Below, piece after piece: positions 1,744 through 14,483 of a DNA stretch of 20,341 bases (position 1 is its first letter; every line of letters begins with the position of its first letter). The translations under genes were made by a program, and so were the position numbers. Source of the stretch: a virus; IMG/VR virus record IMGVR_UViG_3300044621_001870, positions 1-20,341 of that record; one strand, written 5' to 3'. The notes below the pieces were generated by a model, which saw only the letters and a list, made by a program, of their open reading frames with translations, did not search any database and was not told the DNA's origin.

Positions 1744-4698
1744 TTAGTAAGTCCCATCGTCCACGACTCCAATGGACATGGCGCCGGTGCTGTTATCAAC
1801 AAGGACTTCGGTGGATTCAAGGACCGTGCCGATTTGGCTGGTGGTGGCGATTTGGGCGCGACCCCACAGCAGCACCAAGGCATCGCGAACGTCGGTCACC
1901 CCCGTCATGTCGGGAGTGAAGTACGTGCCGTCGCTCAGAATGTCGTAGTCGTTGAAGGTGCCGGTGGCGCCAGAAACAACGGCAATCTTTGTCCAGTTGG
2001 CGCCAGTGCCTTGGCTGAGTACCCAGTCGCCCGCGGCCAGGGAGACGGTGGGGGCTGGCGTGGTGCCGGTACCAGCAGTGGTGGCAATCAGGTAGACGCC
2101 GTTGTTTTGTGGGTTGGGGGCCGTCAGCGATTGGCCGATGGTCAGGCCGGCCTCGGTGCCGTACTGGTTCAGGCTGACGACGAGGTTGGTTGAGGCGTTG
2201 TAGGTGCCGCCAAAACGCAGGTTGAGTTGGGTGGGTGAGCCATAGCCCACAAGCAGCCAGTAGCCGTTGGGGGTGGGGCTGACGGTGCCGATCCAGATGT
2301 AGGCGGAGCGGTCGGATGGGTTGACCCACCACTGGCCAGCGAACTCGGGGGTGGGGGCTGATTCGCTGACTTGGGCGATGCCGTAGTCGGCCAGTTGGGC
2401 TGCAGTAACGCTGTTGGCAGCCAGGAACTCACCAGTAAAGGTGCCGGTGGTTATTTTGCTGGCGTCCAGGCTGGGGACATCGGCAGCGGTCAGGTTTGCG
2501 CCAGTGCTGATATGGCCTTGGGCGTCAACCGTGACTTTGGTGTAAACGCCAGGGCTGACGATGTTGGTGTGATTGAGGACGCCGCCAGCGGCAACGGTCA
2601 GGCCGGTGCCGGGTTGGATGGCGCCGTTCGTACCCGCAGCTGCAACCGGGAGGTCAGCTGCGACAAGGGCACGGAAGCCAGGCGTGGTGGCCGAGCCAGT
2701 CGTTGGGCCGGCAAAAACGGTGTTGGCGTTTTGGTTTTCGAGGCCGGTGGTGATGGTGGCGACACCGGCTGCACTGACCGAGGCGCTGAATGTCAGCGGG
2801 GTGCCGTCGGTAAAGGCGAAGCTTTGGACGCCTGCCTGTTGTTGCCAGGCTGTGCCGTCCCAGACGTAGGTGAAGCCTGTGTTGGTGTTGAACCACTGCT
2901 GGCCTTCAAATTCACCGCTGCCGCTGGGGGCGTTGCCCGAAACAACGGTGCTGGAGTCGGCGGCCAATTTGGCGCCAGTGACGGAGGCAGTACCGAGTTC
3001 GTCGGTGGTGACTGCGCCAGTGGCGATTTTGGCGGTTGTTACCGCGTCGGTCGCGATGCTTGCGGCGAAACTGCCGCTGCCGCTGCCGGTGACATCACCA
3101 GTCAGGGTGATGGTCTGGTCGCCGGTGTTGGTGCCAGAGCTGGTGCCGCTGAAGGTGCCGCTGAAGGTGCCGTCTTGTGTGGCGAGCGTCCCAAGGCCGA
3201 GGGTGGTGCGTTGGGCGGCCGCGTCTGCGTCGTCCAGCAATGCGCGACCGGCGCTGGTGCAGGCGATTTCCTCTACGGCGCCGGCACCAGCAGAGGAGCG
3301 ACCCAGCAGTTTGTCGGTGTCGGTAACATTTTGAATCTTGGCGTAAGTAACACCGCCATCGGCGACTTTTGCGGTAGTTACAGCAGAATCTGCGAGTGCT
3401 GTTGCATCGACTGCGCCAGCGGCTAGTTTGTCAACAGTAACGGCGTCGTCTGCGATCTTTGCCGTGGTAACGGCGTTGTTAATGATTTGGCCGGTGGCAA
3501 CTGCATCAACTGCAATCTGGGTTGAAGTAATAGATGCGTCGGTTAGTTTTGCACCTGGAACGCTGCCGTCGGCCAGATTTAATTTGGCATAGGTAATTTG
3601 CGTATCAGCAATCTTAACTGCCGTTACAGCGCCATCACCGAGTTTAGTTTCGGTAACGGATTCAGAAGCCAGTTTGCCTTCAGTTACCGCTAAAGCAACA
3701 ATGGAAGCTGTGTCAACTGCATCGTCCGCTAACTCCGCTGCACCAACCGCGTTGTCGGCAATAGCGTCAGCTGTGACAGAGCCGGATGCAAGCTGAGTTG
3801 CCGTTACTGCGGCGTCAGCAATCTTTGCCGTAGTGACTGAATCGTCAATTAGTTCATCTGTGCCAACACTACCGGCTGCCATTTGAGTGACAGCGATCGA
3901 ATCGGTCGCAATCTTGGAAGCTGGGATGCTGCCGTCGGCCAGGTTTAACTTGCCGTAAGCAATGGTTGTATTAGCGATCTTGTCGTTGGTAACTGCGCCG
4001 GCACCGAGCTTGGTTTCGGTGACAGCGCCAGCAGCGAGCTTGGCGTCGGTTACGGCGAGGGCGGCGATGGCTGCAGTGTCAACTGCGTTGTCCGCTAGTT
4101 CCGCTGCGCCAACCGCGTTGTCGGCAATGGCTGCTGCATCGACAGCGCCAGCTTGAAATTTGCTGGAGGTGATGGTGCCGTCCGCAATCTTGGCTGCGGT
4201 AACGGCACTATCAGCGATGGCGGCCGTGCCGAGGCCAGCAGCATCGATTTTGGCTGTGGTGACTGCGTTGGCGGCAATCTTGCCGGTGGTGACCGCCAGG
4301 TCTTCGATGCCGGCGGTGGGGGCGATGACCTGCTGGAATACGCTGCCATCCCAGACACTTAGGTATTTGGTTGTGCTGCTGACGTGGCCGCGACCTTCAA
4401 AGTTGTCGGTGCTGGGGGCCGTGGGGCCGTAGTTGATGCTGGAGTCGTTAGCTAGTTTGGCGGCTGTGATCGCGTCATCAGCCAGCGCGGTGGTGCCGAG
4501 TTTGGTGGCGCTGCTTTGGTTAAGTTTGCTGAGGTCGATGCTGGAGTTGTCGGCCAGGGTTGCGCCAGCCTCGAACAGGTCTTTGGCGCGGACTTTTTTG
4601 GTCTCGCTGGCCGAGATGTCAACGATGGGCAGCACGTCCGTTGCTGCCACGTCAGCTTCGTTGAGCTGCGTAAGCTGGGTAATGCGCTGGTCGGCCAA
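1744..4698 (-). CDS. Long repetitive tail fibre protein (984 aa)
   Basis: Probable receptor-binding fibre. The start is TTG at 4698; no earlier start is available in frame, a GAGG lies 9 bases upstream, and the product then begins MADQRITQLTQLNE with LPIVDIS near residue 25, a common N-terminal attachment region in cyanophage fibres. Residues about 130-455 are decapeptide repeats of the type DxAVTTAKIA, listed separately. After these come AAAQRTTLGLGTLATQDG and SGTNTGDQTITLTGDVTGSG, both common fibre motifs. Three copies of a module with a W/Y-rich core (WDGSVFQQV, YVWDGTAWQQ, YIWIG) flank the repeats. The C-terminal part contains NNGVYLIATTAGTG and GDWVLSQGTGANWTKI, a likely beta-rich head. 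It follows the tail-tube-like gene at 4737 after 38 bases and ends against the ATG of the 56-aa gene. Confidence 0.9.
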   Translation of the reverse strand: MADQRITQLTQLNEADVAATDVLPIVDISASETKKVRAKDLFEAGATLADNSSIDLSKLNQSSATKLGTTALADDAITAAKLANDSSINYGPTAPSTDNFEGRGHVSSTTKYLSVWDGSVFQQVIAPTAGIEDLAVTTGKIAANAVTTAKIDAAGLGTAAIADSAVTAAKIADGTITSSKFQAGAVDAAAIADNAVGAAELADNAVDTAAIAALAVTDAKLAAGAVTETKLGAGAVTNDKIANTTIAYGKLNLADGSIPASKIATDSIAVTQMAAGSVGTDELIDDSVTTAKIADAAVTATQLASGSVTADAIADNAVGAAELADDAVDTASIVALAVTEGKLASESVTETKLGDGAVTAVKIADTQITYAKLNLADGSVPGAKLTDASITSTQIAVDAVATGQIINNAVTTAKIADDAVTVDKLAAGAVDATALADSAVTTAKVADGGVTYAKIQNVTDTDKLLGRSSAGAGAVEEIACTSAGRALLDDADAAAQRTTLGLGTLATQDGTFSGTFSGTSSGTNTGDQTITLTGDVTGSGSGSFAASIATDAVTTAKIATGAVTTDELGTASVTGAKLAADSSTVVSGNAPSGSGEFEGQQWFNTNTGFTYVWDGTAWQQQAGVQSFAFTDGTPLTFSASVSAAGVATITTGLENQNANTVFAGPTTGSATTPGFRALVAADLPVAAAGTNGAIQPGTGLTVAAGGVLNHTNIVSPGVYTKVTVDAQGHISTGANLTAADVPSLDASKITTGTFTGEFLAANSVTAAQLADYGIAQVSESAPTPEFAGQWWVNPSDRSAYIWIGTVSPTPNGYWLLVGYGSPTQLNLRFGGTYNASTNLVVSLNQYGTEAGLTIGQSLTAPNPQNNGVYLIATTAGTGTTPAPTVSLAAGDWVLSQGTGANWTKIAVVSGATGTFNDYDILSDGTYFTPDMTGVTDVRDALVLLWGRAQIATTSQIGTVLESTEVLVDNSTGAMSIGVVDDGTY
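3331..4305 (-). repeat. Fibre shaft: 32 decapeptide repeats within a 366-bp super-repeat
   Basis: Reading the fibre protein in tens gives about 32 successive units of the pattern [D/N/A]-x-[A/S]-[V/I]-T-x-x-K-[I/L]-A, such as DSAVTAAKIA, DDSVTTAKIA and NNAVTTAKIA. Two units carry two extra residues (KLNLA). Twelve units form a higher-order repeat: DNAVGAAELA, ALAVTxxKLA, ETKLG, YxKLNLA and DGS[IV]P recur in the same order 122 residues later. In DNA the offset is 366 bp (for example AACTGC at 4081 and at 3715). About 2.6 super-repeat copies are present and have diverged. The regular period with small polar and beta-branched residues suits a trimeric beta-structured shaft; that fold is inference. 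Confidence 0.9.
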
Positions 4699-10399: not shown

Positions 10400-10815
10400 C
10401 AGGCGTCATCCGTCCGTGGATCTCGGATTTCGCCGGCAAGGGAGATTGCCACGTTGTAGACGCCGGGGCGGACGGACTCGACCTTTGGTGGTTCGGCGTA
10501 TTCCCAGCGCAGGTTGCCGCGGGCTGCAGCGAGGCTGGTGACTTCGCCAGCAACGTCGCTGCTCATGCCAGCTGTGGTGTTGGCGGAGAGGCGAAAGCGC
10601 TTGTTTGCTGCGGTTTGGCTGTGGTAGTGATCCAGCAGGGTGTTGACCGCGGCGTCGGCGATGTTGGTGTACTGCAGGTCGAGTTTGGCGCCGTAGGGCG
10701 AGCTGCCGAAGGTGCGGCGAGCCAGTGCGCCAGACAGCGTGCGAAAGCTGCGTTGGGGGTAGACGGCAGGGGTGAAACTGCGTGAGGAGGGAGTTAGCGC
10801 AGGAAAATTAGCCAT
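10399..10815 (-). CDS. Minor tail protein following the tape measure (138 aa)
   Basis: The first gene after the tape measure, with its ATG overlapping the tape measure stop by one base (TAATG). This is the position of the lambda gpM / distal tail protein group. The product starts MANFPALTPSSRSFTPAVYP and contains RTLSGALARRTFGSSPYGAK and LDLQYTNIADAAVNTLLDHY, a pattern seen in many phage minor tail proteins: a short N-terminal arm, a basic strand and a helix. The end, GVYNVAISLAGEIRDPRTDD, looks like a final beta strand. Role inferred: joins the last tube ring to the tip. No enzymatic motif is visible. Confidence 0.75.
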   Translation of the reverse strand: MANFPALTPSSRSFTPAVYPQRSFRTLSGALARRTFGSSPYGAKLDLQYTNIADAAVNTLLDHYHSQTAANKRFRLSANTTAGMSSDVAGEVTSLAAARGNLRWEYAEPPKVESVRPGVYNVAISLAGEIRDPRTDDA

Positions 10816-13130
10816 TAGAAACCAACTCTTCGGCGGGTGTTAGGCGATTGCTGGAGGCGGTCCAAGGTCATCGTCATGCCGCGTTGGGCGCCATCGCGAG
10901 CGGCTTGGCGGCGAGTGGCAGCCATGGCCAGCTCCAGTTGATCGCGGCTGACGTATTCCACACCGCCGATGCTGGTGGTCTCAAAACTCATATTAAGAAC
11001 GGGACTTCCGCCCATTCCCGGGGCAGAACCCATGGCGGAACGGAGGTCATTGTTTGAAACCACAGAACCGCCGGTGCCAGGAACAAACAGTTCAGGGCCG
11101 CGTTCGCCGACGACGTAGGGCGAGCCGCCGGTGACGGGGCCGCCGTTGGCGCGGTAGCCAAAACCACGAGCCAAGAAAGACAAGATCCCTTGAGGATTAC
11201 CGGCACCGCCACCTAATGCCCCTAAAGCTTGGGCAATGCCATACATCATCAACATTTTGCCGATCGTGGCAAGAAGGTCAGCTCCTAGACCTTTTAACGC
11301 TTCGCCAAGGCTTTGTGTGCCAGTGGTCGCAGCATCGATTGCCCCGGCAAAAGCTCCGGCAACGGTGCTCGATATGCTTTCAAATAAATCTTTTTCCATT
11401 TGAAGCTTGGCGTTTGCGGCTTCTTGTTCTTTGGTAAGCTTTCGGATTTCGGCAATTTTCAGACCAAGAGCCTGCCTATCTGCATCGGTTAGAACGATGC
11501 CAGCCTTCTTAAGTGTGTTCTCAATTTCCAGCAGTTGCAGCGCTTGCTTCTGGGCTTCTGTCACAGCGGCTGTTTTGATCATTTGCATGTCAAGGCCGGC
11601 TAGTGCCTCTGCAATTGCCTTTTGCTGCTGACGGTCTTGCTCCTGTGCTTTGCCCGTTTGCTCGGCGAGCAATGTATTGATCTCCAGCTCGAGCCCAAGC
11701 CTTTTTGTTTTGAGATCATTGGTAGTCTCATCAAAAGCTAAAGCTGCACGTACCTTGTCTTGCTCGGATGCGATAATTTCGGCTCGAACCTCGGCCCGCT
11801 TGGTCAGTGTTTCGTCGATAGCACCAATCTGGTATTTGATATTTAGCAGCTTCGATGAGTATTCGACCATTCGCTGTGCCTGCTGCGGATTCTCGCTTGC
11901 GGCGGCAGTGTTCATCATCTTTGCAGTAGCCGCAGACAACCTTGCCTGTTGCTCTTGCAGCCTGCGCCCGATATTGCCGCCGATTAGATCGTCAATGTTG
12001 AGCGCTTTGCTGGGTTTCTCTTTTTCAGCCAACAGTGCTGGTGTGGCTGAAGTGGCAGCGGCAGGCTTGGCTGGTTTGGACTGTTGGCGCAGACTGCCCA
12101 GCCTCTGCTCAAGTTTTTGAGCTTCTTTTTGTAGCTGCTGCAATTCATATTTCATGCCAGGTAATGCTGGCTGGCCGCCACCCATCACCTGCCCATCTAT
12201 GCCCAAAACAGGGGCGCCAGCTTGCGTGCCAATTCCAGCAGCTTCTCCCGCCTTAATGGCTGCTTGAAGTTCTTTGATTCGAGCGCGTGTGTTGAATAAT
12301 TGATCGTTGGCTTTTTTGTAATCGGGACCAGCTAATGCCTGATTGATTTTGTCTACCACCATCGTGGCAAAATCAAGAGTCTCTTTTAGCGCAGGCTTAA
12401 GTGTCTCGCCAATAGTTTTGGCGAGCGTCTCCACACCATCCGTAAGCGTGCTCCATTTGCCGGCCAACGTATCACTCTGCGCGATGGCGCCATCTGCATA
12501 TTTGCCGCCTGCGTTAGTCAGTCGAATAACCGCAACCTCAACCGCCTCGGCTCCAATGCGGCCTTTCTCTAGCGCTTTCTGGAATTCCTCACCAGAAAGC
12601 CCATACATCTTGCGCAGTTCTTCCTGCAGCGCCACGCCGCGCTCTTGGAACTGCAGCAGTTCCTCGCCTTGCAGCCTGCCCTTGGCCTGCACTTGGCCGT
12701 AGGCAGTAACCAAGCCTTGTAGTTCGGCACCGGTAGCGCCGCTAACATCAGCCAGTCGCCTAGTAGTTTCTACAACTTTCTCTGTTTCAACGCCAAACGC
12801 TTGCAATCGTTTAGCGGAATCAATTAGCTCGGTGCTGGTGAATGGCGTTACAGCACCAAGCTGCTGCAGCTCTTTGATAATCTGTCCGGCTTTTTCTGCA
12901 CTGCCAGTTAGTACCTCAAGACTGCGGGTTTGGCTTTCTAATTCAGCCGTCTTGGCAAATACAAACTTGAATGCTTGCAGCGCCCCAAAAGCAACCGCAA
13001 GCTTGCCGGCGGCGGCGGCAACACCATTGAACGCCTTTTCTGTCGCGCCTGCCTGCGCCTGCACTTCACGCAGTTTGCTGACAGCATTGCGGCTGTCAAC
13101 GTTAATCGCGACATTAGCGACGACAGACAC
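10815..13130 (-). CDS. Tail tape measure protein (771 aa)
   Basis: It sets tail length and is carried inside the tube. The start is GTG at 13130 (MSVVANVAINVDSRNAVSKL), 9 bases after the chaperone extension stop, with an AGGG 7 bases upstream. The N-terminal third has the tape measure domain pattern (TIGR02675 type): RLADVSGATGAELQGLVTAY and GEELLQFQERGVALQEELRK, then AIAQSDTLAGKWSTL. The middle is rich in A, E, Q and K and looks coiled-coil. A hydrophobic helix near residues 620-650 (LLATIGKMLMMYGIAQALGA) could be a membrane-inserting segment. The C-terminal region holds GGPVTGGSPYVVGERGPELF (about 660-680), a frequent tape measure motif. At 771 aa a tail of roughly 110-120 nm would be expected by the usual 0.15 nm per residue; that is an estimate. 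Confidence 0.93.
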   Translation of the reverse strand: MSVVANVAINVDSRNAVSKLREVQAQAGATEKAFNGVAAAAGKLAVAFGALQAFKFVFAKTAELESQTRSLEVLTGSAEKAGQIIKELQQLGAVTPFTSTELIDSAKRLQAFGVETEKVVETTRRLADVSGATGAELQGLVTAYGQVQAKGRLQGEELLQFQERGVALQEELRKMYGLSGEEFQKALEKGRIGAEAVEVAVIRLTNAGGKYADGAIAQSDTLAGKWSTLTDGVETLAKTIGETLKPALKETLDFATMVVDKINQALAGPDYKKANDQLFNTRARIKELQAAIKAGEAAGIGTQAGAPVLGIDGQVMGGGQPALPGMKYELQQLQKEAQKLEQRLGSLRQQSKPAKPAAATSATPALLAEKEKPSKALNIDDLIGGNIGRRLQEQQARLSAATAKMMNTAAASENPQQAQRMVEYSSKLLNIKYQIGAIDETLTKRAEVRAEIIASEQDKVRAALAFDETTNDLKTKRLGLELEINTLLAEQTGKAQEQDRQQQKAIAEALAGLDMQMIKTAAVTEAQKQALQLLEIENTLKKAGIVLTDADRQALGLKIAEIRKLTKEQEAANAKLQMEKDLFESISSTVAGAFAGAIDAATTGTQSLGEALKGLGADLLATIGKMLMMYGIAQALGALGGGAGNPQGILSFLARGFGYRANGGPVTGGSPYVVGERGPELFVPGTGGSVVSNNDLRSAMGSAPGMGGSPVLNMSFETTSIGGVEYVSRDQLELAMAATRRQAARDGAQRGMTMTLDRLQQSPNTRRRVGF

Positions 13131-13139
13131 AGCGCTACC

Positions 13140-13325
13140 CTACCGCCTTTGCTTCATTCTACGCTCTTGCTCCTCGTTTTGAAGCTCAAAGTAGCTGCTC
13201 CAAATCAACAGCTCCTCTAGCGTCACTTCTTGATTGAGCTTAGCCAAGCTATAACCAAGTTCCTTTGCAACGCCAAGTTGCAGCAGCAGCAGGTTGTCTT
13301 TACTTAACTCCTTCTTTAATGCTTT
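13140..13325 (-). CDS. Tail assembly chaperone extension, lambda gpT-like, reached by frameshift
   Basis: After the stop of the upstream chaperone gene, the +1 frame is open from 13325 (just after an in-frame TGA) to a TAG at 13140. It encodes NLLLLQLGVAKELGYSLAKL, then NQEVTLEELLIWSSYFELQ, NEEQERRMKQRR. The LGYSLxxLN...TxEELxxWxxYFxL pattern is typical of the second half of siphophage tail chaperones (gpT / GT type), which bind the tape measure before tube assembly. It has no ATG or GTG start and no start codon in the first part, so it is probably made only as a fusion with the upstream product. The tape measure gene follows after 9 bases, as expected. The exact junction residue is not known. 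Confidence 0.82.
   Translation of the reverse strand, partial: KALKKELSKDNLLLLQLGVAKELGYSLAKLNQEVTLEELLIWSSYFELQNEEQERRMKQRR
13300..13317 (-). other. Probable recoding site (+1 or -2) in the chaperone
   Basis: In reading order the zero-frame codons are AAA GAA GGA GTT AAG TAA. The extension is open only in the +1 frame. The bases AAGGAG form a Shine-Dalgarno-like hexamer that ends 2 bases before the codon AAG, which is followed directly by the TAA stop. This layout resembles the prfB (release factor 2) +1 site, where a Shine-Dalgarno sequence sits 3 bases before CUU UGA. However, AAG to AGT is a poor re-pairing; AAA slipping to AAG at 13317-13314 pairs better. A -2 shift as in phage Mu is also possible. 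Confidence 0.6.
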
Positions 13326-13656
13326 TCATGTCCAGTTGCTCTGCATCTTCTGGATTGGTGATGATTGCAAGCATCATACCTTGCAGATCAGCGTCTAGCA
13401 CTTCTTCCTTAAGTTCGGCAATTTCGCCAGCTGCAAACAAGCGCTTGCCGGTGTCGTCCATTGCCTTGGTAACCAGCAAGTTCAATGCAAAGCCGTTGGT
13501 ATTGCTGCCACCAGGCATGTTCTCTGCGCGCTCGCGTTCGGCCATGGTCAATGGCGCGGAGTAAAACTCAAACACACTGCCATCGGTTAGCGTTACAACC
13601 CGCTTGGTTGGCGTCAGGTTGGCTGCTTTTTTGAGGCGTGCAAGCGCGGATGCCAT
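13300..13656 (-). CDS. Tail assembly chaperone, lambda gpG-like (118 aa)
   Basis: It lies between the major tail protein and the tape measure, the fixed place of the gpG/gpGT chaperone. Visible segments are RVVTLTDGSVFEFYSAPLTM (residues 19-38), AERERAE, then FALNLLVTKAMDDTGKRLF and GEIAELKEEVLDADLQGMML. The TLTDG...FxFxxPLTMxERExAE pattern is common in this family. The protein ends DMKSIKEGVK at a TAA; a fraction of ribosomes is expected to shift frame near the end and add the gpT-like extension. I see no Shine-Dalgarno sequence before the ATG at 13656 (AACTCACCAATTTTT), so initiation may be weak, which would fit a low-copy chaperone just after a terminator. Confidence 0.85.
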   Translation of the reverse strand: MASALARLKKAANLTPTKRVVTLTDGSVFEFYSAPLTMAERERAENMPGGSNTNGFALNLLVTKAMDDTGKRLFAAGEIAELKEEVLDADLQGMMLAIITNPEDAEQLDMKSIKEGVK

Positions 13657-13724: not shown

Positions 13725-14483
13725 TCAGGCACTGGTGCTGAAATCAAACGTTGGCACGCCAGCTGGACGGAAGGTAATCTCCACCTGCTGGGCATCGTCA
13801 GGGTTGACATTCAGGCTGGCTGAGATCAGCACTGCATCCATGGCAATACTGCGGCTTAGCGCCTCAGTCCCCTGCTTGTCGGTGTACAGCTTGAATGCGC
13901 AGCCCACCTGCTGACGCTGCAGCACGTCTTCCACCATGCGGTTAGACAGGGCGGCATCTTCGTTGGTCACGTAGACGGTAGCAGTGCCATTGCCATCGGC
14001 AAAACCAGGGATGTAAGCGCGGAAGGGTGCGTACTGCCCAGCGGTCTGGCCGATGGTTGTGACATCGATCTCGCTACGGCTGATCTCAAAAGACCAAGAC
14101 TGCACTTGCCCAACGGCAGCAAAATCGGCGTAGTACACCTCAAATTCGTTGGGTGCTACTGCTGTCCCGTCGTCGGTGATGGCCAAGATGGTACCACCAG
14201 CAGCAGTAGAAACTGTCAGCGCGCCAGTAGCAGCTGTGTAGGACAGCACGTAGTAGGTGGTAGCTGCATCAATGGGAGCCGGCAGCGTGCCAGAGCCGGA
14301 GCCGCCTGTCTGGCTGTTGATGACGCGGAACTTGACAGGATCACCGGCCTTGAAGTTCAGGTACGGCTGAACGGTGATGACATCAGTGCTGGCATTGACG
14401 CCGGATTCGGGAAAGTTGCCGTTAGTACCGGCAGGTTTGTAGTAAAGGGCGCCGGACGTACCGGACAGAACAGTAACAGCCAT
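13725..14483 (-). CDS. Major tail (tube) protein (252 aa)
   Basis: The tube subunit, placed between the tail terminator gene and the tail chaperone. It starts MAVTVLSGTSGALYYKPAGT. Residues about 33-115 look like an inserted beta domain: FKAGDPVKFRVINSQTG, then TYYVLSYTAATGALTVSTAA. The tube core resumes with VQSWSFEISRSEIDVTTIG (127-145), GNGTATVYVT (164-173) and closes with SIAMDAVLISASLNVNPDDA (212-231), QQVEITFRPAGVP. The two shorter tube-like proteins at 5606 and 4737 share this core. The ATG at 14483 has no clear Shine-Dalgarno sequence (CACTACCGTTCACAAC precedes it), surprising for an abundant product. An intrinsic terminator follows 11 bases after the stop. Confidence 0.9.
   Translation of the reverse strand: MAVTVLSGTSGALYYKPAGTNGNFPESGVNASTDVITVQPYLNFKAGDPVKFRVINSQTGGSGSGTLPAPIDAATTYYVLSYTAATGALTVSTAAGGTILAITDDGTAVAPNEFEVYYADFAAVGQVQSWSFEISRSEIDVTTIGQTAGQYAPFRAYIPGFADGNGTATVYVTNEDAALSNRMVEDVLQRQQVGCAFKLYTDKQGTEALSRSIAMDAVLISASLNVNPDDAQQVEITFRPAGVPTFDFSTSA

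Follow-up and report, generated by a model that had tools for sequence, protein, structure and literature searches.

Reading frames at the gpG/gpT locus

The record IMGVR_UViG_3300044621_001870 of an uncultured virus (about 20 kb) was analysed from position 1 to 20,341, and this whole stretch is referred to as the window. We describe here two overlapping reading frames on its minus strand, the strand of all features mentioned below, which encode a putative tail assembly chaperone and appear to be joined by a programmed +1 frameshift. The gpG-like open reading frame (ORF; 13300..13656) encodes 118 amino acids in the 0 frame and matches PHROG 20784 (E 3.6e-29). As described in an initial annotation of this DNA, it stops at a TAA (13302-13300). 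The gpT-like extension (13140..13325) codes for KALKKELSKDNLLLLQLGVAKELGYSLAKLNQEVTLEELLIWSSYFELQNEEQERRMKQRR in the +1 frame, its open stretch beginning at 13325 and closing with a TAG (13142-13140). It matches PHROG 26456 (E 4e-6) and, weakly, tail-protein families. The same annotation had stated that this extension is open in the +1 frame only and has no usable start codon, and both points were borne out. The -1 frame opens just 1 base ahead of the gpG stop and ends 77 bases past it, and the gpT frame offers no ATG, GTG or TTG until a TTG at about codon 26, within the conserved part.

Searches with gpG and with divergent members of its family, together with phage records, yielded 490 loci. 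In a profile search both gpG and gpT were detected in 477 of these, with gpT in the +1 frame relative to gpG in 253 loci, in the -1 frame in 224 and in frame in none. The +1 loci come from many independent metagenomes. Some contigs were retrieved more than once, and the +1 loci reduce to 171 distinct contexts of 180 bases. Read in the +1 frame, gpT exhibits a median ratio of nonsynonymous to synonymous substitution rates (dN/dS) of 0.09 in the window's own clade and of 0.22 in a marine clade; the values for the remaining frames of the gpT region are 0.8 to 3.8. Thus, gpT is under purifying selection in the +1 frame only.

The AAA AGC site and its conservation

The proposed slip site AAA AGC (13321..13326) is located eight codons upstream of the gpG stop. 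Its 5' limit is set by a TGA of the +1 frame (13326..13328, inside ATGA), and most members have a +1-frame stop (ATGA, TTGA, TTAA) just 5' of the AAA. On the 3' side the position of the gpG stop varies. Window-type genes carry a TAA eight codons past the AAA and other members of the window clade a TGA at varied distances; relatives of the L058 type have a 0-frame TGA after AGC plus three more codons, and gpG of the marine clade (L003; L489) mostly ends with TTR AAA AGC TAA. A 0-frame stop directly follows AGC in 55 of the 171 contexts. The shift must therefore take place at AAA or AGC, the only codons common to every shift window.

All 171 contexts have an in-frame AAA AGN at the same position, which in 163 of them reads AAA AGC. 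The proposed slip codon, consisting of three identical bases with the same base next (AAA_A), is hence without exception. There are also signs of synonymous constraint. In the window clade the lysine of the site is encoded by AAA in 86 of 86 contexts; at seven other conserved lysine positions AAA and AAG are mixed (46:40, 53:31, 7:79, 55:31, 48:38, 60:26 and 23:61). The serine of the site is encoded by AGC or AGT in the same 86 contexts (AGC in 84), and conserved serines elsewhere use all codons. Even in the AT-rich marine clade AGC occupies the site in 66 of 71 contexts, though it accounts for just 5% of the serine codons.

A programmed +1 frameshift on AAA_A(GC), yielding the G-GT pair of a tail assembly chaperone, is in our view a highly likely interpretation of these sequences. 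With regard to efficiency, most ribosomes would translate gpG through to its stop and a minority would slip by +1 while the peptidyl-tRNA-Lys is on the AAA of ATG AAA AGC. The tRNA-Lys would leave AAA (13326-13324) and re-pair perfectly with the overlapping AAA (13325-13323), and the A site would then hold GCA (Ala; 13322-13320) instead of AGC (Ser). gpT would subsequently be read as a C-terminal extension of gpG (..QLDMK-ALKKELSKDNLLLL..). The initial annotation had mentioned a slip from AAA to AAG further upstream as a caveat; the AAA does lie upstream, but its predicted new partner is AAA and not AAG. Because the window clade uses AGC more often than any other serine codon (44%), the preference for it at the site may serve the shifted frame, in which AGC gives an Ala codon (GCN), rather than slow decoding.

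Some observations weigh against a +1 slip on AAA. An exchange of AAA for AAG would alter the overlapping shifted codon too, and dual coding could account for some of the constraint. Furthermore, neither a Shine-Dalgarno run within prfB distance of the AAA nor a conserved RNA structure was found, and there was no downstream consensus fold in either clade. Folding of the downstream RNA gave a z score of -0.06 for the window; with single-sequence folding the window clade reached lower values (median -2.2), these being calculated against mononucleotide shuffles only. Nor can the slip in the window clade be put down to a starved A-site codon, AGC being rare in the marine clade only.

A second AAA G, two codons past AAA AGC, was rejected as slip site, as it is missing in several relatives (e.g. 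L067, L113, L124). Members of the marine clade (L003, L165-L244, L489) exhibit a strong anti-Shine-Dalgarno match (AAGGAGG, AAGGGGG, AGAGGAG or AGGGAGG; mean about -10 kcal/mol) about 23-30 bases 5' of the AAA. This run is kept despite differing encoded residues (KE, KG, RG, RE), and it is followed by the near-invariant GAGGCTAAAGCCGA. Its distance from the AAA is too great for an effect of the prfB type.

Alternative explanations and shift direction among relatives

The initial annotation had proposed that the shift may lie further downstream, at AAG-TAA, and be driven by AAGGAG as in prfB. AAGGAG (13313-13308), TT, AAG and TAA are indeed present in this order (13300..13313), and prfB-like elements exist in the window as well as in its nearest relatives. 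However, AAGGAG codes for the Lys-Glu of gpT K-E-L, and we judge the layout to be a coincidence of these codons. Comparison of the homologues, whose alignment had been proposed as a check, confirmed the +1 relation in the 253 loci but not the conservation of AAGGAG-TT-AAG-TAA, and GGAG lies within 14 bases of the gpG stop (<=14) in only 26 of the 86 window-clade contexts. In relatives of the L058 type and in the marine clade the gpG frame ends before the AAG-TAA position and the gpT frame is unchanged. Ribosomes could therefore not get to this point in frame, and AAG to AGT would moreover be a poor pairing. A shift at AAG-TAA is thus very unlikely, whereas the proposal that a shift into the +1 frame joins the two parts of a tail assembly chaperone is supported. 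The AAA site itself does not resemble prfB, since 1 to 9 sense codons separate AAA from the stop and there is no Shine-Dalgarno run about 3 bases 5' of the slip codon, nor any close anti-Shine-Dalgarno pairing at AAA. It does not conform to the canonical heptamer X_XXY_YYZ with gpT in the -1 frame either, as the window and the members of its clade have gpT in the +1 frame.

The same frame would be reached by a -2 shift at the same place, as has been reported of phage Mu, and -2 shifts are known in tail chaperones (PMC5009743). The codons then offered, TGA, TAA or TCA to the P-site tRNA-Lys and AAA to the tRNA-Ser reading AGC, would not pair well, and every one of the 171 contexts allows perfect re-pairing after a +1 move; we regard the -2 shift as improbable. 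Even less is to be said for a separate synthesis of gpT, be it through re-initiation behind gpG or from an internal start there. Such a start could make use of the Shine-Dalgarno-like AAGGAG near the gpG stop of the window, but this run is not conserved, and an ATG, GTG or TTG precedes the conserved gpT core in just 9 of 171 contexts (in the rest it occurs at codon 11 or later, or not at all). A separate start would also leave the conservation of AAA AG unexplained, so that we give this possibility very little weight. RNA polymerase slippage on the A-run at the gpG/gpT junction is more improbable still, as this run comprises only four or five As and bacterial slippage runs are longer than seven (PMC3711429). 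Finally, a sequencing error of one base, named in the initial annotation as a possible source of the frame relation, or a decayed gene is suggested only by the frame break itself. With 253 loci sharing the frame and gpT under strong purifying selection, the probability of either is negligible.

The predicted +1 slip on AAA has a counterpart in relatives with the opposite direction. KBS-S-2A, the closest isolate, possesses the same two proteins in a -1 relation at GTA AAA AAC (A_AAA_AAC), and further -1 relatives show C_CCA_AAA, A_AAA_AAA, G_GGA_AAG or A_AAG. From the shifted AAA to a conserved Asp the sequence reads K-R-L-K-A-E-L-K-K-D in -1 members (e.g. L276) versus K-A-L-K-A-E-L-K-R-D in +1 members (e.g. 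L040). Since these gpT residue counts agree, the A-runs of both types stand at corresponding places. In -1 members such as L276 the gpG frame has its codon on the final three As of the run; in +1 members it has it on the initial three.

In a tree built on gpG plus gpT, with the columns of the site left out, three +1 groups were found, i.e. the freshwater clade of the window, the L161 clade and the marine clade. The union of all +1 members in one clade was rejected (approximately unbiased test, p-AU 0.007), but not the joining of the freshwater and L161 groups (p-AU 0.11). The AAA AG site therefore accompanies the +1 relation in at least two lineages. On this tree the predicted shift direction is seen to have changed at least twice. 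More tentatively, and with somewhat less than an even chance of being right, we suggest that one chaperone family repeatedly swaps between -1 and +1 at corresponding A-runs, that the direction is set by the way the frame cuts the run (NNA_AAA for -1, AAA_A for +1), and that the +1 form operates on an ordinary A-site sense codon, needing no stop codon, nearby Shine-Dalgarno sequence or RNA structure.

Overlapping -1 frames and an A-rich slip site were also observed in the cultured phages KBS-S-2A (L002), S-H1 (L325), MED4-117 and MED4-184/P-HS2 (L326/L328) and in two Pelagibacter phages (L327, L329). In their records gpT is either unannotated or present as just a short separate ORF.

Probable chaperone function and comparison with known systems

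gpG and gpT are located between the genes for the major tail protein (13725..14483, directly upstream of gpG; PHROG 158, E 6.5e-9) and the tape measure protein (10815..13130, directly downstream of gpT; PHROG tape measure families, best E 1.1e-37). An AlphaFold model of gpG, based on 22 sequences, reached a mean predicted local distance difference test score (pLDDT) of 81.5. Its best match in the PDB was the HK97 tail assembly chaperone 2ob9 (probability 1.00, E 1.8e-3, template modelling score 0.52-0.56), and the viral models that it matched include several with an annotation as tail assembly chaperone. A Pfam sequence search with the gpG protein of the window gave no match, and a sequence search of solved structures returned nothing useful. 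A single-sequence fold of the gpG-gpT fusion was of too low confidence and was not used. In view of the HK97-like fold of the model and of the genomic position just described, a G/GT tail assembly chaperone is the natural reading. By analogy to lambda, gpG would form a coat on the tape measure protein, and gpGT, the less abundant form, would bring in the major tail protein.

The frameshift of the lambda G/GT chaperone was reportedly described by Xu, Hendrix and Duda in 2004. It is reviewed in PMC5009743. Common to lambda and the window are two overlapping ORFs flanked by the genes for the major tail protein and the tape measure protein, a frameshift product with a T domain (predicted in our case) and the chaperone fold. 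In contrast, lambda shifts by -1 on a heptamer, whereas a +1 shift on AAA_A is proposed here. Closer counterparts are the tail chaperones of KBS-S-2A, S-H1, P-HS2 and HTVC026P, with homologous gpG (62% identity for KBS-S-2A) and gpT and an A-rich site in the corresponding place; the fusion is unannotated in the records of these phages.

A +1 shift in a tail chaperone as such is already known. Tail chaperones of different phages use -1, -2 or +1, the shift of the haloarchaeal virus HSTV-2 being very likely +1 (PMC5009743), and a prediction tool trained on actinobacteriophages permits +1 on runs of three or four identical bases (PMC10885494). HSTV-2 and the 'four' and 'three' forward motifs of SEA-PHAGES have the +1 direction in a tail chaperone and a P-site motif of identical bases in common with the window, but the phages concerned are unrelated to it. 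The +1 slip of the P-site tRNA proposed here would be shared with prfB (CUU_UGA) and the Listeria PSA tail-shaft gene (CCC_UGA). In both of these the A site is occupied by a stop codon, and prfB has a Shine-Dalgarno run close by as well, whereas the site of the window has a sense codon there. In the open-access literature we found no description of the AAA_AGC site, of its tight bounds and breadth among cyanophages, or of an exchange of direction at corresponding A-runs.

This would be a natural and well-bounded +1 site, with only AAA or AGC possible in some members, which is common in freshwater and marine cyanophages and outside the prfB and proline-codon types. As close relatives use -1 with homologous proteins, the family may serve as a natural experiment for studying the determinants of slip direction. 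In addition, many cyanophage genomes would gain a missing gene product.

The window virus is most likely a cyanosiphophage, since its capsid protein shows 76% identity to the counterpart of Synechococcus phage KBS-S-2A. A search of bacterial genomes for the chaperone returned a single contig, from a Prochlorococcus single cell. This phage-like contig of 41 kb (Prochlorococcus sp. AG-418-M08, L489) is part of the single-cell assembly and suggests a host for the marine +1 clade. The window also encodes a protein of 984 amino acids (1744-4698) consisting mostly of repeated motifs such as DNAVGAAELADNAVDTA, which is probably a tail fibre.
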